NCBI RefSeq assembly: GCF_011320115.1
Contig: NZ_JAANOZ010000018.1
Coordinates: 1 to 47,184 of the forward strand
Reading direction: 5' to 3'
Source: Croceibacterium segetis
GTDB taxonomy: Bacteria; Pseudomonadota; Alphaproteobacteria; Sphingomonadales; Sphingomonadaceae
Length of the DNA: 47,184 bases
Positions 40,485 through 47,184 of this stretch are shown here, one piece after another. The notes below the pieces were generated by a model that was not told where the DNA came from, ran no database searches, and worked only from the letters and a program-made list of their open reading frames with translations. Within the stretch, counting starts at the first letter, position 1. Every line of letters begins with the position of its first letter. The position numbers and the translations under genes were made by a program.

Positions 40485-40681
40485 CAAATCCACCGCCCCC
40501 TGATGTTGGCGTAGAGCCCCCAGAGGCCACCGAACAGCAGCCCGAAGCCGATCCGCGAGAGGCCGAGCGGCGCGTCGATCTGCCAATAGGCCATCGTCTG
40601 CGCGGTCAACGGCGCAATGAAGCCGATCCCGAAGAGGAACGGCATCCAATAGAGCAGTTTGCGGATTACGAGGGCGCCCAT
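40484..40681 (-). CDS. Small membrane protein preceding the desaturase
   Basis: 65 residues with two hydrophobic helices (about 9-27, [17 protein letters not shown], and 42-60, [18 protein letters not shown]). It is immediately upstream of the desaturase gene, with stop and start sharing one base, so the two are co-translated. It may be a partner or assembly factor, but no family was recognised. Confidence 0.68.
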
Positions 40682-40807
40682 CGGCCGTTTACCTAAATTA
40701 AACCATGGTCCGCCGCAAGATTCAGGGGCTTGCCGTCACAAATCGGGTCAGCCGCCATGGCGCGGCGGCCACCGCCGAGGTCGGCGCGGAAATCCGCCGC
40801 AAGGGGC

Positions 40808-40836
40808 TTGCACGCGCCCCGCGCGCCCTCTAGCCA
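40808..40836 (+). promoter_or_regulatory. Possible housekeeping promoter of hppA
   Basis: TTGCAC (40808-40813) and TAGCCA (40831-40836) are 17 bases apart, about 75 bases before the hppA start. The -35 is a fair match and the -10 is weak. A GC-rich dyad CCGCC-N7-GGCGG lies upstream near 40751-40767. Low confidence, from reading only. Confidence 0.25.
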
Positions 40837-40910
40837 GCTTCGTCGCCTGCGGCCGAGGGAGTTCCCGTCGGGCCGCGGCTTTGTTTTGGGAAATAGGGGG
40901 AAGGCTAGCA

Positions 40911-43031
40911 ATGAGCCTCGTAGGTATTTCGATTGTTCTGGGACTTCTGGCCGTCGTCTACGGCTTCGTCACCAGCCGCCAGATCCTCGGCGCGTCCGCC
41001 GGCAGCGACAAGATGCAGGAGATCGCCGGGGCGATCCAGGAAGGCGCGCAGGCCTACCTCAAGCGCCAGTACACCACCATCGGCATCGTCGGCGTCGTCG
41101 TCGCGGTGATCGTCGCTATCTTCCTCGGCCCGATCAGCGCCGCCGGCTTCGTGCTCGGCTCCGTCCTCTCGGGCTTCGCCGGCTTCATCGGCATGAACAT
41201 TTCGGTGCGGGCCAACGTGCGCACCGCTGCGGCAGCCCAGAAGGGCTTGCAGCAGGGCCTGACCCTCGCCTTCCGCGCCGGCGCGATCACCGGCATGCTC
41301 GTCGCCGGTCTGGCGCTGCTCGCGATCGCGGTGTTCTTCTGGTACCTCACCGGCCCGGGCGGCTACACCGTCGGCGGGACCGACCGCACGGTCGTGCAGG
41401 CACTCACCGCACTGGCCTTTGGCGCTTCGCTGATCTCGATCTTCGCCCGTCTCGGGGGCGGCATTTTCACCAAGGCGGCCGACGTCGGCGCCGACCTCGT
41501 CGGCAAGGTCGAGGCGGGCATCCCCGAGGACGACCCGCGCAACCCGGCGGTCATCGCCGATAACGTGGGCGACAACGTCGGCGACTGCGCCGGCATGGCA
41601 GCCGACCTGTTCGAGACTTACGTCGTCACCGTTGGCGCCACGATGGTGCTCACCGCGCTGCTGCTCGGCGGCGCCGGCGACAAGCTGATGGCACTGATGA
41701 GCCTGCCGCTGCTGATCGGCGGCGCCTGCATCGTCACCTCGATCATCGGCACCTACTTCGTCCGTCTCGGCGGCGGCACCAACATCATGGGCGCGATGTA
41801 CAAGGGCTTCCTCGTCACCGCAGTCCTCTCGATTCCGGCGATCTACGGCATGATGATGCTCGCGCTCGGCGACATGAACGCGGTCGTTGGCGTCGCCGGC
41901 GGCGGTGGCGGCAACTTCACCGGCATGGACCTGTTCTGGTGTTCGCTGCTCGGCCTCGTCATCACCGGGCTAATCATCTGGATCACCGAGTACTACACCG
42001 GGACGAACTTCCGCCCGGTGCGCTCGATCGCCAAGGCTTCGGAAACCGGCCACGGCACCAACGTCATCCAGGGCCTTGCGGTGTCGCTCGAATCGACCGC
42101 ACTGCCCACCCTGGTGATCGTCGCGGGCATCATCATCGCCTACCAGCTCGCTGGCCTGCTCGGCATCGCCTACGCGGCGACGGCGATGCTCGCCCTCGCC
42201 GGCATGGTTGTCGCGCTAGACGCTTACGGCCCTGTGACCGACAACGCCGGCGGCATCGCCGAGATGGCCGGCCTCGACGACGCGGTCCGTGCGAAGACCG
42301 ACGCGCTCGACGCGGTGGGCAACACCACCAAGGCGGTGACCAAGGGTTACGCGATCGGTTCGGCGGGCCTCGCCGCGCTGGTGCTGTTCGCCGCCTACAC
42401 CACCGACTTGCGCGAGTTCTTCCCCGCGCTGAACGTCGATTTCAGCCTCGAGAACCCGTACGTTATCGTCGGGCTGCTGCTCGGCGCGCTGCTCCCCTAC
42501 CTGTTCGGCTCGATGGGCATGACTGCCGTCGGCCGCGCGGCGGGAGACGTGGTCAAGGACGTGCGCGAGCAGTTCGCGGGCGACCCGGGCATCATGGCCG
42601 GCACCAGCCGTCCGAACTATGCCCGCACGGTCGACCTGGTCACCAAGGCGGCGATCAAGGAGATGATCGTGCCGAGCTTGCTGCCGGTGCTCGCGCCGAT
42701 CGTGGTCTACTTCGTGATCACCGCGATCGCCGGGCAGGCCAACGGCTTCGCCGCACTCGGCGCGCTGCTTCTCGGCGTGATCGTCGGCGGGCTGTTCGTG
42801 GCGATCTCGATGACCGCCGGCGGCGGAGCGTGGGACAACGCCAAGAAGTACATCGAAGACGGTCACTACGGCGGCAAGGGCTCCGAGGCGCACAAGGCCG
42901 CGGTGACCGGCGACACGGTCGGCGATCCCTACAAGGACACCGCCGGCCCGGCGGTGAACCCGATGATCAAGATCACCAACATCGTCGCGCTGCTGCTCCT
43001 GGCGGCATTGGCCGCTCACGCCGGCGTCTGA
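40911..43031 (+). CDS. hppA: Proton-pumping membrane pyrophosphatase, K+-independent
   Basis: 706 residues, about 16 membrane helices. Hydrolyses pyrophosphate and pumps H+ across the inner membrane. The substrate site shows the run [20 protein letters not shown] and [19 protein letters not shown]; a second site [13 protein letters not shown] and a third [19 protein letters not shown] complete it. The residue deciding K+ dependence is Lys474 in [15 protein letters not shown], where K+-dependent enzymes have Ala; the pump is therefore K+-independent. GGGGGAAGG precedes the ATG. Single-gene unit with its own terminator. Confidence 0.96.
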
Positions 43032-43052
43032 TCTTCACGACTGAGTTCAAGA

Positions 43053-43084
43053 GCCCCGTCCGGCTGGCGCCGGGCGGGGCTTTT
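43053..43084 (+). terminator. Intrinsic terminator after hppA
   Basis: An 11-bp stem GCCCCGTCCGG / CCGGGCGGGGC with one G-T pair and a 6-base loop, followed by TTTT. It lies 22 bases after the hppA stop and before tesB. Confidence 0.85.
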
Positions 43085-43099
43085 GTGTAGCCGCCGGGG

Positions 43100-43978
43100 A
43101 TGAGCGAACCGACCTCCGAAGCTCTCGTCGCCAACCTGCTACGGCTGCTCGAGCTCAAGTCGCTCGGCGAGGACCGCTTCGAAGGCCCACGGCGGCGCGA
43201 CGGGGTCGGGCGGGTGTTCGGCGGCCAGGTCATCGCCCAGGCGCTGATGGCGGCGCAGGCGACCGTACCCGACGACCGCCCGGCGCATTCGCTCCACGCC
43301 TACTTCCTGCGCGGCGGCAGCGAGGAGCACGATGTCGAGTACCGCGTTGAACGGGGCTTCGACGGTGGCAGCTTCGCCAACCGGCGCGTCGTCGCGATGC
43401 AGCAGGAGCGGCAGATCCTCGCCTGCTCGGTCTCATTCCAGCGGTCAGAGGACGGACCCAGCCACCAGTCCGCGACGATGCCCGCGGTGCCCCCGCCGGA
43501 CGACCTCGAGCCCGAACACGAAGTCCTGGCACGCCACCGCGCCGAAATCGAAGCTCACGCGCCGCGGATCATCCTGCGCCCGCGACCGATTGAGGTGCGC
43601 GCAGCCAACCCGATGGGGCTCCTCAGCCGCGAACCGGGCGCACCGGAGCAGCGCGTGTGGTTCCGCGCTCGCGCACCCCTTCCCGACGATCCTAACCTGC
43701 ACCGCGCGGTGCTGGCCTACTTCAGCGACATGCGGTTGATGGCGACCTGCCTGCTACCCCACGGCCTCGCCTTCGCGCGCGGCGACGTGCGCGGAGCGAG
43801 CCTCGACCACGCACTGTGGTTCCACGAGGATGCCCGCGCCGACGAGTGGCTGCTTTACGCGATGGACAGCCCATGGAGCGGCCACGCCCGCGGGCTCAAC
43901 TTCGGCCGCGTGTTCACCGGCGACGGCCGGCTGATCGCCAGCGTGGCGCAGGAAGGAATGTTCCGGGCCACCCGCTGA
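43100..43978 (+). CDS. tesB: Acyl-CoA thioesterase II
   Basis: 292 residues, double hot-dog fold; hydrolyses acyl-CoA to free fatty acid and CoA. The first hot dog has RVFGGQVIAQALMAAQATV and HSLHAYFLRGGSEEHDVEY. The second has HRAVLAYFSDMRLMATCLLP and SLDHALWFHEDARADEWLLY, with the active-site Asp in SLDHALWFH, then FTGDGRLIASVAQEGMFR. Length and motifs are standard. It lies just behind the hppA terminator and is convergent with the anti-sigma gene. Confidence 0.93.
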   Translation: MSEPTSEALVANLLRLLELKSLGEDRFEGPRRRDGVGRVFGGQVIAQALMAAQATVPDDRPAHSLHAYFLRGGSEEHDVEYRVERGFDGGSFANRRVVAMQQERQILACSVSFQRSEDGPSHQSATMPAVPPPDDLEPEHEVLARHRAEIEAHAPRIILRPRPIEVRAANPMGLLSREPGAPEQRVWFRARAPLPDDPNLHRAVLAYFSDMRLMATCLLPHGLAFARGDVRGASLDHALWFHEDARADEWLLYAMDSPWSGHARGLNFGRVFTGDGRLIASVAQEGMFRATR

Positions 43979-44000: not shown

Positions 44001-44693
44001 TCAACGCCATGCGCTGGCCCGCGCGGCTCGCTCTTGGTCTGCCGTGAGCGCCGGCCCGGCGGCCATGTCCTGGGCCTTCGCCATCAGTTCGGCCGCGGTG
44101 CTTCCGGCCATTTGGTAGTTGCCTTGCTGCATCGCGGCGGCACCGCCTACGGCCTTCAATTGCCAGCCGATCGCATCCTTGCAGGCGATCCCGCTTTGCG
44201 CGGCGCCGGCGAAAGCGCGGCAGTATTGCCCGCCGTCGTTTCGGAAGCTGAGGAGCATGCGAGTGGGCGCGCCGGATTCTTGCGTGGCGACGAGCTGGTT
44301 ATCGAGCGCGGACGCAAGCTGCGCACCGGCGTAGCCTTCCGGCACCTCGCCGCCGCGCGGCAGGAAGACCGCCAGCGCGAGCGACGCGGCGAGCGCCGGG
44401 CCGACGATCCAGCCCCAGCGTGGAATGCCGCGTGCGGCGCGGCGCTGCTTCGCCGCCGTGAAATCGATCACCTTCGGCGCCGCCTTGCCAAACAGCGCGG
44501 TCAGGCTTTCCGGCACGGGCTCGTCGAGGATCGGCGCAAAGTGGGCGGACAGGCGGTCCCTGAGCGCGCGATGCCGCGCAACCTCGGTCGCCAGCGTCGG
44601 GTCGGCCGCGACCGCCGCTGCCACTTCGCTCTGCCGCGGCTCGGCGAGCTGGCCGTCGGCAAAGGCCGCCAGTTCCTCGCGCAACACCCTCAT
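44001..44693 (-). CDS. Membrane anti-sigma factor of the adjacent ECF sigma
   Basis: 230 residues. A cytosolic N-terminal part begins MRVLREELAAFADGQL and contains ARHRALRDRLSAHFAPIL, fitting a helical sigma-binding domain. It lacks the His-x3-Cys-x2-Cys zinc motif of ZAS anti-sigmas. One membrane helix lies at about 94-112 (WGWIVGPALAASLALAVFL). The periplasmic part of about 115 residues has two Cys (QYCRAF and IACKDA) that could form a disulfide. Start at 44693 overlaps the sigma stop (ATGA). Role inferred from position, topology and overlap. Confidence 0.82.
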   Translation of the reverse strand: MRVLREELAAFADGQLAEPRQSEVAAAVAADPTLATEVARHRALRDRLSAHFAPILDEPVPESLTALFGKAAPKVIDFTAAKQRRAARGIPRWGWIVGPALAASLALAVFLPRGGEVPEGYAGAQLASALDNQLVATQESGAPTRMLLSFRNDGGQYCRAFAGAAQSGIACKDAIGWQLKAVGGAAAMQQGNYQMAGSTAAELMAKAQDMAAGPALTADQERAARASAWR

Positions 44694-45154
44694 ACGCCGT
44701 CTCCCAGCCACGCCATCAGCGCGTCGCGCCCGCGCACCAGCCGCGAGTTGAGCGTGCCGACAGGGCAACCGACGATCTCGGCGGCTTCCTTGTAGGAATA
44801 GCCTTCGACCATCACCAGTAGCACCGCCTCGCGTTGCTCGTCAGGCAATGTGCCCAGGCCGCGCTCGATCACCGAAAGCGTGACCGCTTCTTCCTGCCCG
44901 CCGCCGCCACCGACCGACAGGCCGGCTTCCTCGGCGACGAAGGTCTCGCCCCGGCGCGTCCTCGCGCGGCTTTCGTCGATCCAGATATTACGCATCATTC
45001 GGTACATCCAACTGTCCAGTCGCGTGCCCGGCTGCCACAAATCGCGCTTTTCGAGCGCGCGGATCACGGTCGCCTGGCACAAGTCGTCGCCGTCGGCGGG
45101 GTCGCGCGCCAGGCCCGCGGCGAAACGCCGCAGCCGGGGTAAGAGCGCCATCAC
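44690..45154 (-). CDS. ECF-type RNA polymerase sigma factor
   Basis: 154 residues. Region 2 is LLPRLRRFAAGLARDPADGD, DLCQATVIRALEKRDLWQPG and SWMYRMMRNIWIDESRA. Region 4 is LPDEQREAVLLVMVEGYSYK and EAAEIVGCPVGTLNSRLVRG. No region 3, so it is an ECF (group 4) factor. The first ATG/GTG/TTG codon of the frame is the GTG at 45154 (ATG next), but in-frame coding seems to extend nine codons upstream (IADDGFEQG) to an ATA at 45181 with GAGG six bases before it. The longer form would be closer to typical ECF N-termini. Operon with the anti-sigma. Confidence 0.9.
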   Translation of the reverse strand: MMALLPRLRRFAAGLARDPADGDDLCQATVIRALEKRDLWQPGTRLDSWMYRMMRNIWIDESRARTRRGETFVAEEAGLSVGGGGGQEEAVTLSVIERGLGTLPDEQREAVLLVMVEGYSYKEAAEIVGCPVGTLNSRLVRGRDALMAWLGDGV

Positions 45155-45198
45155 GCCTTGCTCGAAGCCGTCGTCGGCTATGACTTGCCTCGTTTCAT

Positions 45199-45225
45199 GG
45201 ATTAAACGGATGAGACCGTGCGTTT
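45199..45225 (+). promoter_or_regulatory. ECF-like promoter of the protease gene
   Basis: GGATTAAAC (45199-45207), 13 bases, CGTTT (45221-45225). Read as a -35 of GGATT and a -10 of CGTTT the gap is 17 bases, within the ECF range. Transcription would start near 45232, about 23 bases before the protease ATG. The same pattern stands on the opposite strand and again at 46531. Confidence 0.5.
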
Positions 45226-45230
45226 CATCC
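45204..45230 (-). promoter_or_regulatory. ECF-like promoter of the sigma/anti-sigma operon
   Basis: On the minus strand GGATGAAAC (45230-45222), 13 bases, CGTTT (45208-45204). It overlaps the plus-strand promoter almost completely because AAACG and CGTTT are each other's complement. It would give autoregulation of the sigma factor, with a start near 45197. Confidence 0.5.
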
Positions 45231-45254
45231 GTGCTTCATGCGAAATAGCAAGAG

Positions 45255-46496
45255 ATGTCGAGAATGCGTGCTCCCTTCACCCTGCTGACCGCCTGCGCGG
45301 TGCTGCTCACGGTCCCTGCCGCGGCGCAGCTGCTGCCGGGCGTCGGCGTGCCGCAATTGCCAGTGGTGGGGCCGGTCGCGCAAGGCCTCGAGCAGACACT
45401 CGACCGCCCGCTGCAAGACATTCGCCAGACCGCGCAGCAGCTGGTCGAGGCGCGCGCGGACCGCATCGCCGACCTGCTGCGGCGCCAGAGCGAATTCGTC
45501 GAACCCGATGCCAACGGCGAGCCGGCGGTGCGCGGCGAACTTCTGCTGGTCGATGCCGATGCGGCGACGCTCGGGGCTGTGCGCGCGGCGGGCTTTAGGG
45601 AAGCGGGCAGCGAACAACTTGGCTCGCTCGGAATAAGCGTCACCCGATTGCAGGTGCCGCGGGGCGCGTCGCTCGGCGAGGCGCAGCGGCACTTGCTGCG
45701 CGTGGCGCCCGCCGCCGAGATCGCCCCGGACAACCTGCATTTTCAGAGCGGCGGCACGGCGACGCTCGAAGTTGCGGCTGCCGCGGCCGTCGCGCCCGCG
45801 ACGATCGCCACTCCCGTGGGAGTGATCGACGGCGCTCCGGGCAAGGGCCAGCAAGTCGCCGCGCTGCGCGGCTTCGCCAAGGGCGCGCCGCTGGCCAGCA
45901 ACCACGGCAGCGCGGTCGTTTCGCTGCTGCAAGGCGCGGGCGCGCGCCGGGTGCTGGCGGCCGACGTCTATGGCAGCGATCCGGCGGGCGGCAACGCGCT
46001 CGCCATCGTTCGCGCGCTCGACTGGCTCGCCGGGGCCGGCGCGCGCGTGGTCTCGATCAGCCTGGTCGGTCCGCGCAACGCAGTGCTCGAGAAGGCGCTC
46101 GGAGCGCTGCAACGAAAGGGCATGATCGTGGTCGCCGCCGTCGGCAACGACGGCCCTGCCGCGCCGCCGTCCTATCCGGCGTCCTATCCCGGGGTACTGG
46201 CGGTCACCGGTGTCGATCGCCGCCAGCGCCCGCTGATCGAGGCTGGCCGCGCGCTGCACCTCGACTACGCCGCACCTGGAGCCGACATCCGTGGCCGCGA
46301 CAAGGCGGGGAAATGGGCCAGCCTGCGCGGAACCTCCTTCGCCGTCCCTCTCGTTGCCGCTCGCGCCGCGGCCGCGCTCGCCCGCGGCGGATCGTGGCGG
46401 GCGGCGCTCGACCGCGAAGCGGTGGACCTGGGGCCGCAGGGACCGGACGGGCAATTCGGCCGCGGGCTGCTTTGCCGCGAGTGTGCCCGCCGCTAG
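45255..46496 (+). CDS. Secreted subtilisin-like (S8) serine protease
   Basis: 413 residues. A signal peptide ends near AVLLTVPAAA (about residue 24). A helical prodomain-like region (about 35-75) and a small alpha/beta segment precede the protease. The S8 catalytic residues are Asp192 in VGVIDGAPG, His217 in SNHGSAVVSLL, the oxyanion Asn298 in VAAVGNDGP and Ser361 in RGTSFAVPLVAA. It is shorter than typical secreted subtilisins and ends in LLCRECARR with two Cys. The ATG at 45264 is a slightly better-spaced alternative start. It diverges from the ECF operon and shares its promoter element. Confidence 0.88.
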   Translation: MSRMRAPFTLLTACAVLLTVPAAAQLLPGVGVPQLPVVGPVAQGLEQTLDRPLQDIRQTAQQLVEARADRIADLLRRQSEFVEPDANGEPAVRGELLLVDADAATLGAVRAAGFREAGSEQLGSLGISVTRLQVPRGASLGEAQRHLLRVAPAAEIAPDNLHFQSGGTATLEVAAAAAVAPATIATPVGVIDGAPGKGQQVAALRGFAKGAPLASNHGSAVVSLLQGAGARRVLAADVYGSDPAGGNALAIVRALDWLAGAGARVVSISLVGPRNAVLEKALGALQRKGMIVVAAVGNDGPAAPPSYPASYPGVLAVTGVDRRQRPLIEAGRALHLDYAAPGADIRGRDKAGKWASLRGTSFAVPLVAARAAAALARGGSWRAALDREAVDLGPQGPDGQFGRGLLCRECARR

Positions 46497-46530
46497 CCGA
46501 ACCGGCTCGCAAAATTCTTTCCCATCGCGT

Positions 46531-46557
46531 GAATTAAACCGCTCGGGACATCCGTTT
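46531..46557 (+). promoter_or_regulatory. Third copy of the ECF-like promoter
   Basis: GAATTAAAC (46531-46539), 13 bases, CGTTT (46553-46557), with the same spacing as the two copies at 45199-45230. It stands 35 bases after the protease stop and 53 bases before the next ATG, so the downstream gene probably has its own sigma-dependent promoter. A weak stem AGCCG-AAC-CGGCT (46495-46507) overlaps the protease stop. Confidence 0.5.
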
Positions 46558-46610
46558 TCCTTTCGAACCGGCAGCAGACCCTGCCGGCGAATGGAAGAAG
46601 GAACCCAGTC

Positions 46611-47184
46611 ATGAAACGGATTTGGATCGCCGGATCGGCCATCGCTCTCATCGCCCTCCCGGCGCAAGCGCAGATTCTCGGCGGCGGCGGGGGACTTGGC
46701 GGCGTGCTCGGCGGCGCCGGCTCGGTCGGCGCGATGCCGTCGTTCCCCTCCCTCCCCGACCTGCCCAGCAATCCCACCGGCGGCACATTGGGTGCCACCG
46801 GCAGCGGCTCGGCCAGCGGCAACGGCTCGGCGCATGTCGACCACCACAGGGGCCATGTCGACGCAAGCGGAAACGGCAACGCCAGCGGCAACGGCGGCCT
46901 GAACGGCGTGCTCAACACCCCGGCGGGCAGCGCCAACGGCAGCGGCCGCGCGAGCGGCTCGGCATCGGGCGGCGGCTCGGCGTCGGCGGACCTGATCGGC
47001 ACCGACCAGCTTCGTTCGACCGCGCAAGGCGCCGTCGCGGGAGCGCGCGGAACCGCGCAGCAGGCGCGCGGCACGGCCTCGGGCCTCGCCGGAGGCGCCG
47101 GTTCGCTGGCCGGCAACGCCTCGGGCAGCGGCTACGGCGCCGCGAACGGCTCAGCCGGCTACGCGTCGGGCGCGCTCGCCGCGG
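46611..47184 (+). CDS. Secreted Gly/Ala/Ser/Asn-rich low-complexity protein, 3' end outside window
   Basis: 191 codons are present with no stop. A signal peptide (MKRIWIAGSAIALIALPAQA) is followed by QILGGGGGLGGVLGGAG, a Pro/Ser segment (MPSFPSLPDLPSNP) and then long runs built of SGNGSA, SGNGNASGNG, SANGSGRASGSASGGG type units. A short more ordered patch reads DLIGTDQLRSTAQGAVAGAR before another low-complexity stretch with SGYGAANGSAGYASG. The composition resembles surface, adhesin or matrix proteins, but no family was recognised. GAAGAAGGA precedes the ATG. An ECF-like promoter precedes it. Confidence 0.75.
   Translation, partial: MKRIWIAGSAIALIALPAQAQILGGGGGLGGVLGGAGSVGAMPSFPSLPDLPSNPTGGTLGATGSGSASGNGSAHVDHHRGHVDASGNGNASGNGGLNGVLNTPAGSANGSGRASGSASGGGSASADLIGTDQLRSTAQGAVAGARGTAQQARGTASGLAGGAGSLAGNASGSGYGAANGSAGYASGALAA

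Follow-up and report, generated by a model that had tools for sequence, protein, structure and literature searches.

The 47,184-nt window analyzed here, positions 1 to 47,184 of contig NZ_JAANOZ010000018.1 of Croceibacterium segetis (assembly GCF_011320115.1; order Sphingomonadales), carries in its last part genes for an extracytoplasmic function (ECF) sigma factor, a putative membrane anti-sigma factor, a divergently transcribed S8 protease, and a secreted low-complexity protein. Coordinates are those of the whole window; G000 followed by a C number denotes a contig of the same genome, and L and G numbers denote sampled loci and genomes, respectively. The locus comprises the following features:

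44001..44693, minus strand: putative membrane anti-sigma factor with a helical N-terminal anti-sigma domain, one membrane helix, and a periplasmic beta-sheet domain
44690..45154, minus strand: ECF sigma factor, 154 amino acids from a GTG start, matching Pfam Sigma70_r2 and r4_2 above cut-off
45199..45230, both strands: predicted 32-bp palindromic shared promoter, GGATTAAACG-N12-CGTTTCATCC
45199..45225, plus strand: predicted promoter copy toward the S8 protease gene
45204..45230, minus strand: predicted promoter copy toward the sigma/anti-sigma genes
45255..46496 (start possibly 45264), plus strand: secreted subtilisin-like S8 protease with a signal peptide and an N-terminal pro-region, matching Pfam PF00082 above cut-off
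46531..46557, plus strand: predicted third promoter copy, non-palindromic, with the low-complexity start codon 54 bases past its end
46611..47184, plus strand: secreted low-complexity protein, cut by the contig end

The original prediction, made from the window alone, had named these four genes and proposed three copies of a 27-base motif, two of them in the divergent gap. The gene identities held: the sigma factor and the protease exceed their Pfam cut-offs, the anti-sigma factor has weak NCBIfam matches that all fall below cut-off and no Pfam match at an E value of 1, and the Gly/Ala/Ser/Asn-rich protein has no family match. The pattern GRATKAAAC-N13-CGTTT matches the window exactly three times, at 45199-45225 (+), 45204-45230 (−), and 46531-46557 (+), with no match in 100 dinucleotide shuffles of the window. 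Both copies in the divergent gap are present; they are, however, not separate elements but overlap by 22 bases and make one palindrome that reads GGATKAAAC-N13-CGTTT from either side, with the AAACG of one −35 element being the CGTTT of the opposite −10 element. Each half-site is thus predicted to be a −35 element in one direction and a −10 element in the other. The motif is also not common at random sites, as the whole genome (3,284,002 bases) contains only these three matches and none for the reversed pattern. With 1 mismatch allowed, one additional site appears, at C38:154496; it lies inside another coding frame, which resembles a methyltransferase gene, and was regarded as a chance match rather than as a further regulon member. 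Allowing up to 2 mismatches gives a total of 22 matches versus 11 in the control, and these looser matches are, therefore, largely noise.

To place these sites in a comparative frame, we used a sample of 296 genomes of the order and a protease profile search in which "type I" denotes the close group defined by our cut at an E value of 1e-115. The exact motif is present in 71 of the 296 genomes, and type I proteases are found at 71 loci in 70 genomes. The exact palindrome, i.e., the overlapping pair, occurs in 56 of these 70 genomes and in none of the other 226. The 226 genomes contain 12 single motif sites versus 9 for the reversed pattern, and we consider such stray sites background for that reason. 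All 57 exact palindromes (one genome has two) sit between sigma/anti-sigma genes and an S8 protease gene. An exact pair is lacking in 14 type I genomes; 11 of these come from a single genus, taken to be Sphingopyxis because named Sphingopyxis loci show the same variant palindrome, GGAAGAAACG-N12-CGTTTCTTCC; this variant is present in 8 of the 11, with mixed forms in the other 3 (L206, L209, and L211). Three loci of other orders that were found by protein alone (L146 to L148) have the exact palindrome and a low-complexity gene. We also compared 101 loci, comprising the 71 type I loci, the 3 loci of other orders, and 27 named loci (some of which repeat sampled genomes); the palindrome is recognizable within 2 mismatches in both directions in 100. 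From the 15 single-match genomes that lack the pair, four were fetched by motif place: the cassette is present in G179 and G289 and absent from G021 and G076. For G080 and G267, the protein place was used instead. G110, G151, and G177 carry a type I split locus plus a second, more distant sigma-protease locus.

The third site is conserved as well. In 96 of the 101 loci, the region 3' of the S8 gene has a site that departs from a five-variant consensus by at most 2 mismatches, compared to 15 of 1,010 control stretches of equal length that were taken from the same loci and scored with the same variant set; in L058, the site is more distant from the S8 gene yet exact. In Sphingopyxis-type loci, the promoter of the low-complexity gene mostly reads GGAAGAAAN...CGTTC. 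Among the 95 scorable loci, the fourth −35 base is T in all three promoters in 72, A in all three in 19, and mixed in 4, with A being the Sphingopyxis form; most Sphingopyxis loci show the change at all three promoters. Such a joint change matches what one shared sigma factor predicts. A fifth gene, for a secreted protein of ~115 residues and usually convergent with the anti-sigma gene, is present in 22 of the 71 type I loci, and a site within 2 mismatches lies upstream of it in 21 of these 22. In some relatives, a small secreted helical protein would thus stand behind the same kind of site; searching the window's own genome for this gene gave nothing at an E value of 1.

The gene for the low-complexity protein is interrupted at 47184 by an assembly gap; contig C11 opens with a repeat of the window's last codons, and the remainder of the gene lies at G000:C11:33-353 with a PRC-barrel-like C-terminal domain. 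Past residue 21, the protein is 28% Gly, 18% Ala, 14% Ser, and 6% Asn, and in its cut form it gave no Pfam match at an E value of 1 and no family match. A low-complexity gene encoding a mature end of the AQ[LIV]LGG type lies 3' of the protease gene in 69 of the 71 type I loci (68 by an automatic signature, with L063 added by hand). At L109, a different Gly/Thr-rich secreted open reading frame (ORF) occupies this position, while at L100 no low-complexity gene was found 3' of the protease gene. Conserved blocks comprise the mature N-terminus, VDRRSG, GTD, and, in most aligned members, the C-terminal PRC barrel. The PRC profile matches 15 of 18 aligned proteins, the window's cut protein being among the 18, with a best E value of 3e-5, and the first member is below the curated cut-off. 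The model of a relative (L246:7255-8103) has a predicted local distance difference test (pLDDT) score of about 90 in the PRC region, and its fold matches PRC structures with a probability of 1.00 and a best E value of 1.8e-3, none being at 1e-3 or better. Profile and fold, the latter from this relative, thus both identify the C-terminus as a PRC barrel. In the same model, residues 48-119 of the N-terminal low-complexity half form three beta strands of ~22 residues with pLDDT scores of 56-74, and this half may not be plainly disordered.

The sigma factor consists of regions 2 and 4 only, the two-domain make-up of ECF group 26 (ECF26). Its true start possibly lies ~27 nt upstream, where the window has ATA (about 45181) and many relatives have CTG or GTG. 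In a start listing of the 71 loci, Erythrobacter-type relatives often use CTG, and some use GTG or TTG, just past a GGAAGGC-like ribosome site; in the window (region 45154-45199, minus strand), the GTG at 45154 is otherwise the first start. The arrangement of the anti-sigma factor, an N-terminal domain followed by a membrane helix and a periplasmic domain, is likewise that of ECF26, as judged from the order of the helices and a low-confidence membrane helix in the AlphaFold model. This model has a mean pLDDT of 72, a predicted template modeling score of 0.34, and a pLDDT of about 85 in the periplasmic sheet; a fold search against the PDB returned a best E value of 0.27 and no relative that could be named, and there was a weak match to NepR (E value of 0.09). 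The periplasmic cysteines C158 and C171 are invariant in 13 of 13 aligned rows, including Sinorhizobium meliloti EcfR6. In the model they face each other on adjacent strands (157-163 and 166-172), a placement that, judged from strand register rather than measured coordinates, fits a disulfide. In the protease, D192, H217, N298, and S361, i.e., the Asp/His/Ser triad and the oxyanion Asn of Peptidase S8, are kept in 59 of 59 aligned loci, and its divergent orientation at an ECF sigma locus is the ECF26 arrangement. A search with anti-phage defense models gave no match for the anti-sigma factor, the protease, and the low-complexity protein of the window and one marginal match for the sigma factor (E value of 0.009). 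For the protease of S. meliloti, the search returned a generic subtilase model (E value of 4e-18) and, weakly, IetS. The ORFs at 40659-43978, which presumably encode a membrane pyrophosphatase and an acyl-CoA thioesterase, lie upstream of the cassette and are not part of it.

The closest described system that we compared is RpoE6/EcfR6 of S. meliloti with the divergent protease SMa0142, which has the same gene order and orientation as the window, with identities of 43% (sigma), 29% (anti-sigma), and 31% (protease). On pSymA of strain ml46, the anti-sigma and sigma genes lie on one strand with a divergent S8 protease gene, and this sigma factor corresponds to RpoE6. In the passages of the S. 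meliloti study that deal with it, RpoE6 is assigned to ECF26 and the divergent serine protease is called widely conserved in the group (PMC6180224). The same passages report that RpoE6 overexpression raised the expression of 40 genes, 27 of which are common to the RpoE2 regulon, and that the most prominent were neighbors, including the protease gene SMa0142, SMa0146, and SMa0148, while ecfR6 was also upregulated (PMC6180224). The S. meliloti protease promoter, GGAATAGACCGACGACTCAGCCGTTCT, thus belongs to an RpoE6-induced gene according to these data (PMC6180224). Compared to the ECF26 elements, −35 GGAATA and −10 GT, the window-type promoter has GGA and CGTT in common, while its AAAC extension differs: the −35 element is GGAATA for RpoE6 and GGATKAAAC in the window, and the fourth −35 base is T here and A in Sphingopyxis. 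The two systems also differ in that no palindromic shared promoter was seen in the S. meliloti divergent gap, in that 40 genes respond to RpoE6 while the window's genome has three exact sites, and in that the low-complexity material of S. meliloti consists of a short tract in the protease and an (NSSS)n secreted ORF 3' of the anti-sigma gene, unlike the PRC-barrel protein 3' of the protease gene in the window. The (NSSS)n ORF (L112:2328-2786, minus strand) has about twelve NSSS-type repeats and lies on the anti-sigma strand, whereas the "hypothetical protein" annotated here in the S. meliloti record is on the opposite strand. Such an ORF was also seen at L115:2708-3262 (−) and in S. medicae. 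The published SMa0148 promoter maps to L112:1372, directly before a DUF6065 gene, and SMa0146 should, therefore, be the gene between the DUF6065 gene and the anti-sigma gene; by elimination, we infer that SMa0146 is the (NSSS)n ORF.

Two further S. meliloti factors, RpoE1 and RpoE4, also belong to ECF26 by the authors' classification, have membrane anti-sigma factors, and control sulfite oxidation genes and the sulfite response, and the passages on them name no protease or low-complexity gene (PMC3511301, PMC6180224). From the RpoE1/RpoE4 literature alone, we considered that sulfite might, by analogy, be a signal acting on the C158-C171 pair of the anti-sigma factor. The window's sigma factor also differs from EcfG in having a membrane anti-sigma factor and only three exact sites. 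EcfG of the general stress response (ECF15) is alphaproteobacterial and has a GGA...CGTT promoter style, as in the window; the window's genome has a separate sigma factor that we take to be EcfG-like, on C42 near a presumably PhyR-like gene. In Escherichia coli, the anti-sigma factor is cleaved by DegS, a protease of the HtrA type, and to our knowledge RpoE/RseA/DegS has no low-complexity partner. That system likewise has an ECF sigma factor, a membrane anti-sigma factor, and a periplasmic protease, as described in part of the literature (PMC8103513).

Outside type I, low-complexity sequence is found within the protease itself. One protease search gave 50 places, of which 40 were fetched, 2 were already included, and 8 were left out, and among 45 weaker places from the profile search of the 296 genomes, 28 were fetched, 1 was already included, and 16 were left out. 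For another 68 protease loci, drawn from both the class and the order, we scored a sigma factor as near if it matched at an E value below 1e-25 within 4.5 kb, which applied to 41 loci and not to 27. A low-complexity stretch, defined as 40 residues at ≤2.5 bits of entropy in the N-terminal part of the protease past the signal peptide, was present in 30 of the 41 sigma-adjacent proteases and in 0 of the 27 others (Mann-Whitney P = 2e-9, not corrected for phylogeny). The fused tracts are poly-Asp, DDIEDDVE-like, GDGD, GGNGGN, EEAEEEA, and others. The same measurement on 58 type I proteases yielded values for 56, with no value below 2.7 bits; type I has the separate gene instead. Separate secreted Asp-rich repeat proteins occur at L151:9361-9822 and L153:6248-6730 (oriented coordinates), near proteases with acidic tracts. 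In a sigma factor tree, the 23 included type I rows fall in one supported clade of 27 (99/91) together with L146-L148 and the tract-bearing L220, and because of this nesting the split form with a separate gene looks derived. RpoE6 falls among the S8-linked sigma factors, while deep branches and root are not resolved. The tree has long branches, and one of its "own" rows, L191, reads like a response regulator rather than a sigma factor; we used only the one supported clade.

Based on these data, we consider it likely that the locus is a small ECF26-type cassette in which the sigma factor drives its own operon, the S8 protease gene, and the low-complexity gene and in which protease and low-complexity protein form a pair. 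We refer to ECF26 type on the basis of gene arrangement, domain make-up, and likeness to RpoE6. The predicted regulon of sigma operon, protease gene, and low-complexity gene is strongly supported and, as far as sequence goes, close to certain, because the motif is unique in the genome, the palindrome tracks the orthologous protease, the third site is conserved, and RpoE6 overexpression agrees; that the sigma factor reads these promoters is suggested by their conservation and concerted change and by the experiment in S. meliloti. The proposal that the four genes form one regulon, together with co-occurrence across the order, was thus strongly supported by the comparison (palindrome in 56 of 70 versus 0 of 226 genomes; low-complexity gene in 69 of 71 type I loci) and agrees with the RpoE6 overexpression reported in the relevant passages (PMC6180224). 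Mechanistically, the membrane anti-sigma factor would hold the sigma factor until an envelope signal acts on the periplasmic domain, and the freed sigma factor would then fire three promoters of one sequence family, with the 32-bp palindrome serving the sigma operon and the protease gene and the one-way copy serving the PRC-barrel-bearing low-complexity protein. At the palindrome, polymerase would occupy one direction at a time. The fusions in other lineages make it probable that protease and low-complexity protein work as a pair outside the cytoplasm, with the low-complexity tract as the best candidate partner of the protease; the protein could be a substrate of the protease or a flexible carrier that places it at the envelope. 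The original prediction had suggested that the protease could process the low-complexity protein, and the fusions lend this link indirect support.

Several observations weigh against this interpretation. The loci share descent, and their counts are not independent; the motif pair led to 57 of them and a single copy to 2. Protein searches, in contrast, yielded the 12 variant, 3 other-order, and 27 named loci, which answers this search bias in part, although the protease profile (A3) was itself built mostly from motif-found loci. The five-variant consensus was picked after the third sites had been seen, the Sphingopyxis promoter change is probably one event in one lineage, and the mixed palindromes account for 3 of the 11 sampled Sphingopyxis-type loci. 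With respect to the pairing, 11 of the 41 sigma-adjacent proteases miss the 2.5-bit threshold (3 of these have a separate gene), and 8 of the 27 loci scored as lacking a sigma factor have a weaker match in the stretch (E values of 1e-15 to 1e-7). The variation of the tract between Asp-rich, Gly-rich, and Glu/Ala-rich argues against a single cleavage sequence, several lineages have neither a PRC nor an OmpA domain, and L101 (G047) has an OmpA domain in place of the PRC barrel. Finally, the S8-linked sigma factors did not form a single group in the tree that was distinct from the genome's other factors, and the RpoE6 regulon, given its extent and its overlap with that of RpoE2 in the passages cited, is not closed (PMC6180224).

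Three other explanations were considered. If the palindrome were the operator of a dimeric repressor or activator of both divergent genes, the sigma factor would be a bystander. The symmetry of the gap element, a nearly perfect inverted repeat in all 57 exact palindromes, would fit an operator, but the search pattern itself demands most of it. We regard this explanation as highly improbable: the third and fifth-gene sites are non-palindromic, point toward their genes, and lie mostly 43-66 bases before the start; an unsystematic look at the locus revealed no other constant regulator gene; the half-sites are spaced as expected for an ECF promoter (GGAT-N18-CGTTT); and in S. meliloti, the protease promoter is that of an RpoE6-induced gene. 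It is less far-fetched, yet still unlikely, that the protease serves as site-1 protease of the anti-sigma factor, so that its induction leads to cleavage of the periplasmic domain and leaves the system locked in the on state, which is the feedback loop of the original prediction. Sigma, anti-sigma, and protease genes are constant neighbors in the fetched type I loci, and the periplasmic anti-sigma domain and the protease both act outside the cytoplasm. A protease made solely after activation would, however, mean runaway positive feedback, and the fusions point to the low-complexity tract rather than the anti-sigma factor as its partner; for S. meliloti, the mechanism of activation is described as hypothetical in the passages on it (PMC6180224).

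In the third explanation, which concerns the pairing, the low-complexity protein would merely share the promoter, as a surface or matrix protein unrelated to the protease, and the protease would be a general periplasmic quality-control enzyme. We find this doubtful, albeit the most plausible of the three. The variable C-terminus of the low-complexity protein (PRC barrel, OmpA, or none) is what an envelope structural protein might show. On the other hand, the near-constant position of a separate gene 3' of the protease gene in type I loci is hard to ascribe to chance, and chance neighborhood is a poor explanation for tracts being fused to sigma-adjacent proteases and to none of the others. Returning to the cassette with a protease/low-complexity pair, we tentatively extend it, with rather less than even confidence, to ECF26 modules of Alphaproteobacteria generally. 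A tract would be near-constant in these modules while its chemistry drifts (poly-Asp, Gly/Asp, Gly/Asn, Glu/Ala, and Gly/Ser), and it would exist as a part of the protease or as a separate gene under sigma control; the protease would handle it as a composition-blind chain, and the pair would be a dedicated envelope probe or effector. In the Sphingomonadales version, the palindrome would act as a see-saw between making the signaling pair and making the protease.

The original prediction had recognized no described system with this gene set. The core of sigma factor, anti-sigma factor, and divergent serine protease is in fact known, as it is described for ECF26 in the passages on RpoE6 (PMC6180224); the protease/low-complexity partnership and the shared mirror-image promoter look new. 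Our literature searches gave no account of an ECF26 low-complexity partner or a shared palindrome, although the main ECF classification may list parts of this. The partner is easy to miss because it has no Pfam family as a whole and because the S. meliloti annotation is on the wrong strand. The S. meliloti authors, in the passages on RpoE6, could define no role for this protease-linked ECF26 sigma factor (PMC6180224). With three predicted promoters and a protease kept in 70 of 296 genomes, the regulon is a compact gene set that could be tested in cultivable sphingomonads.

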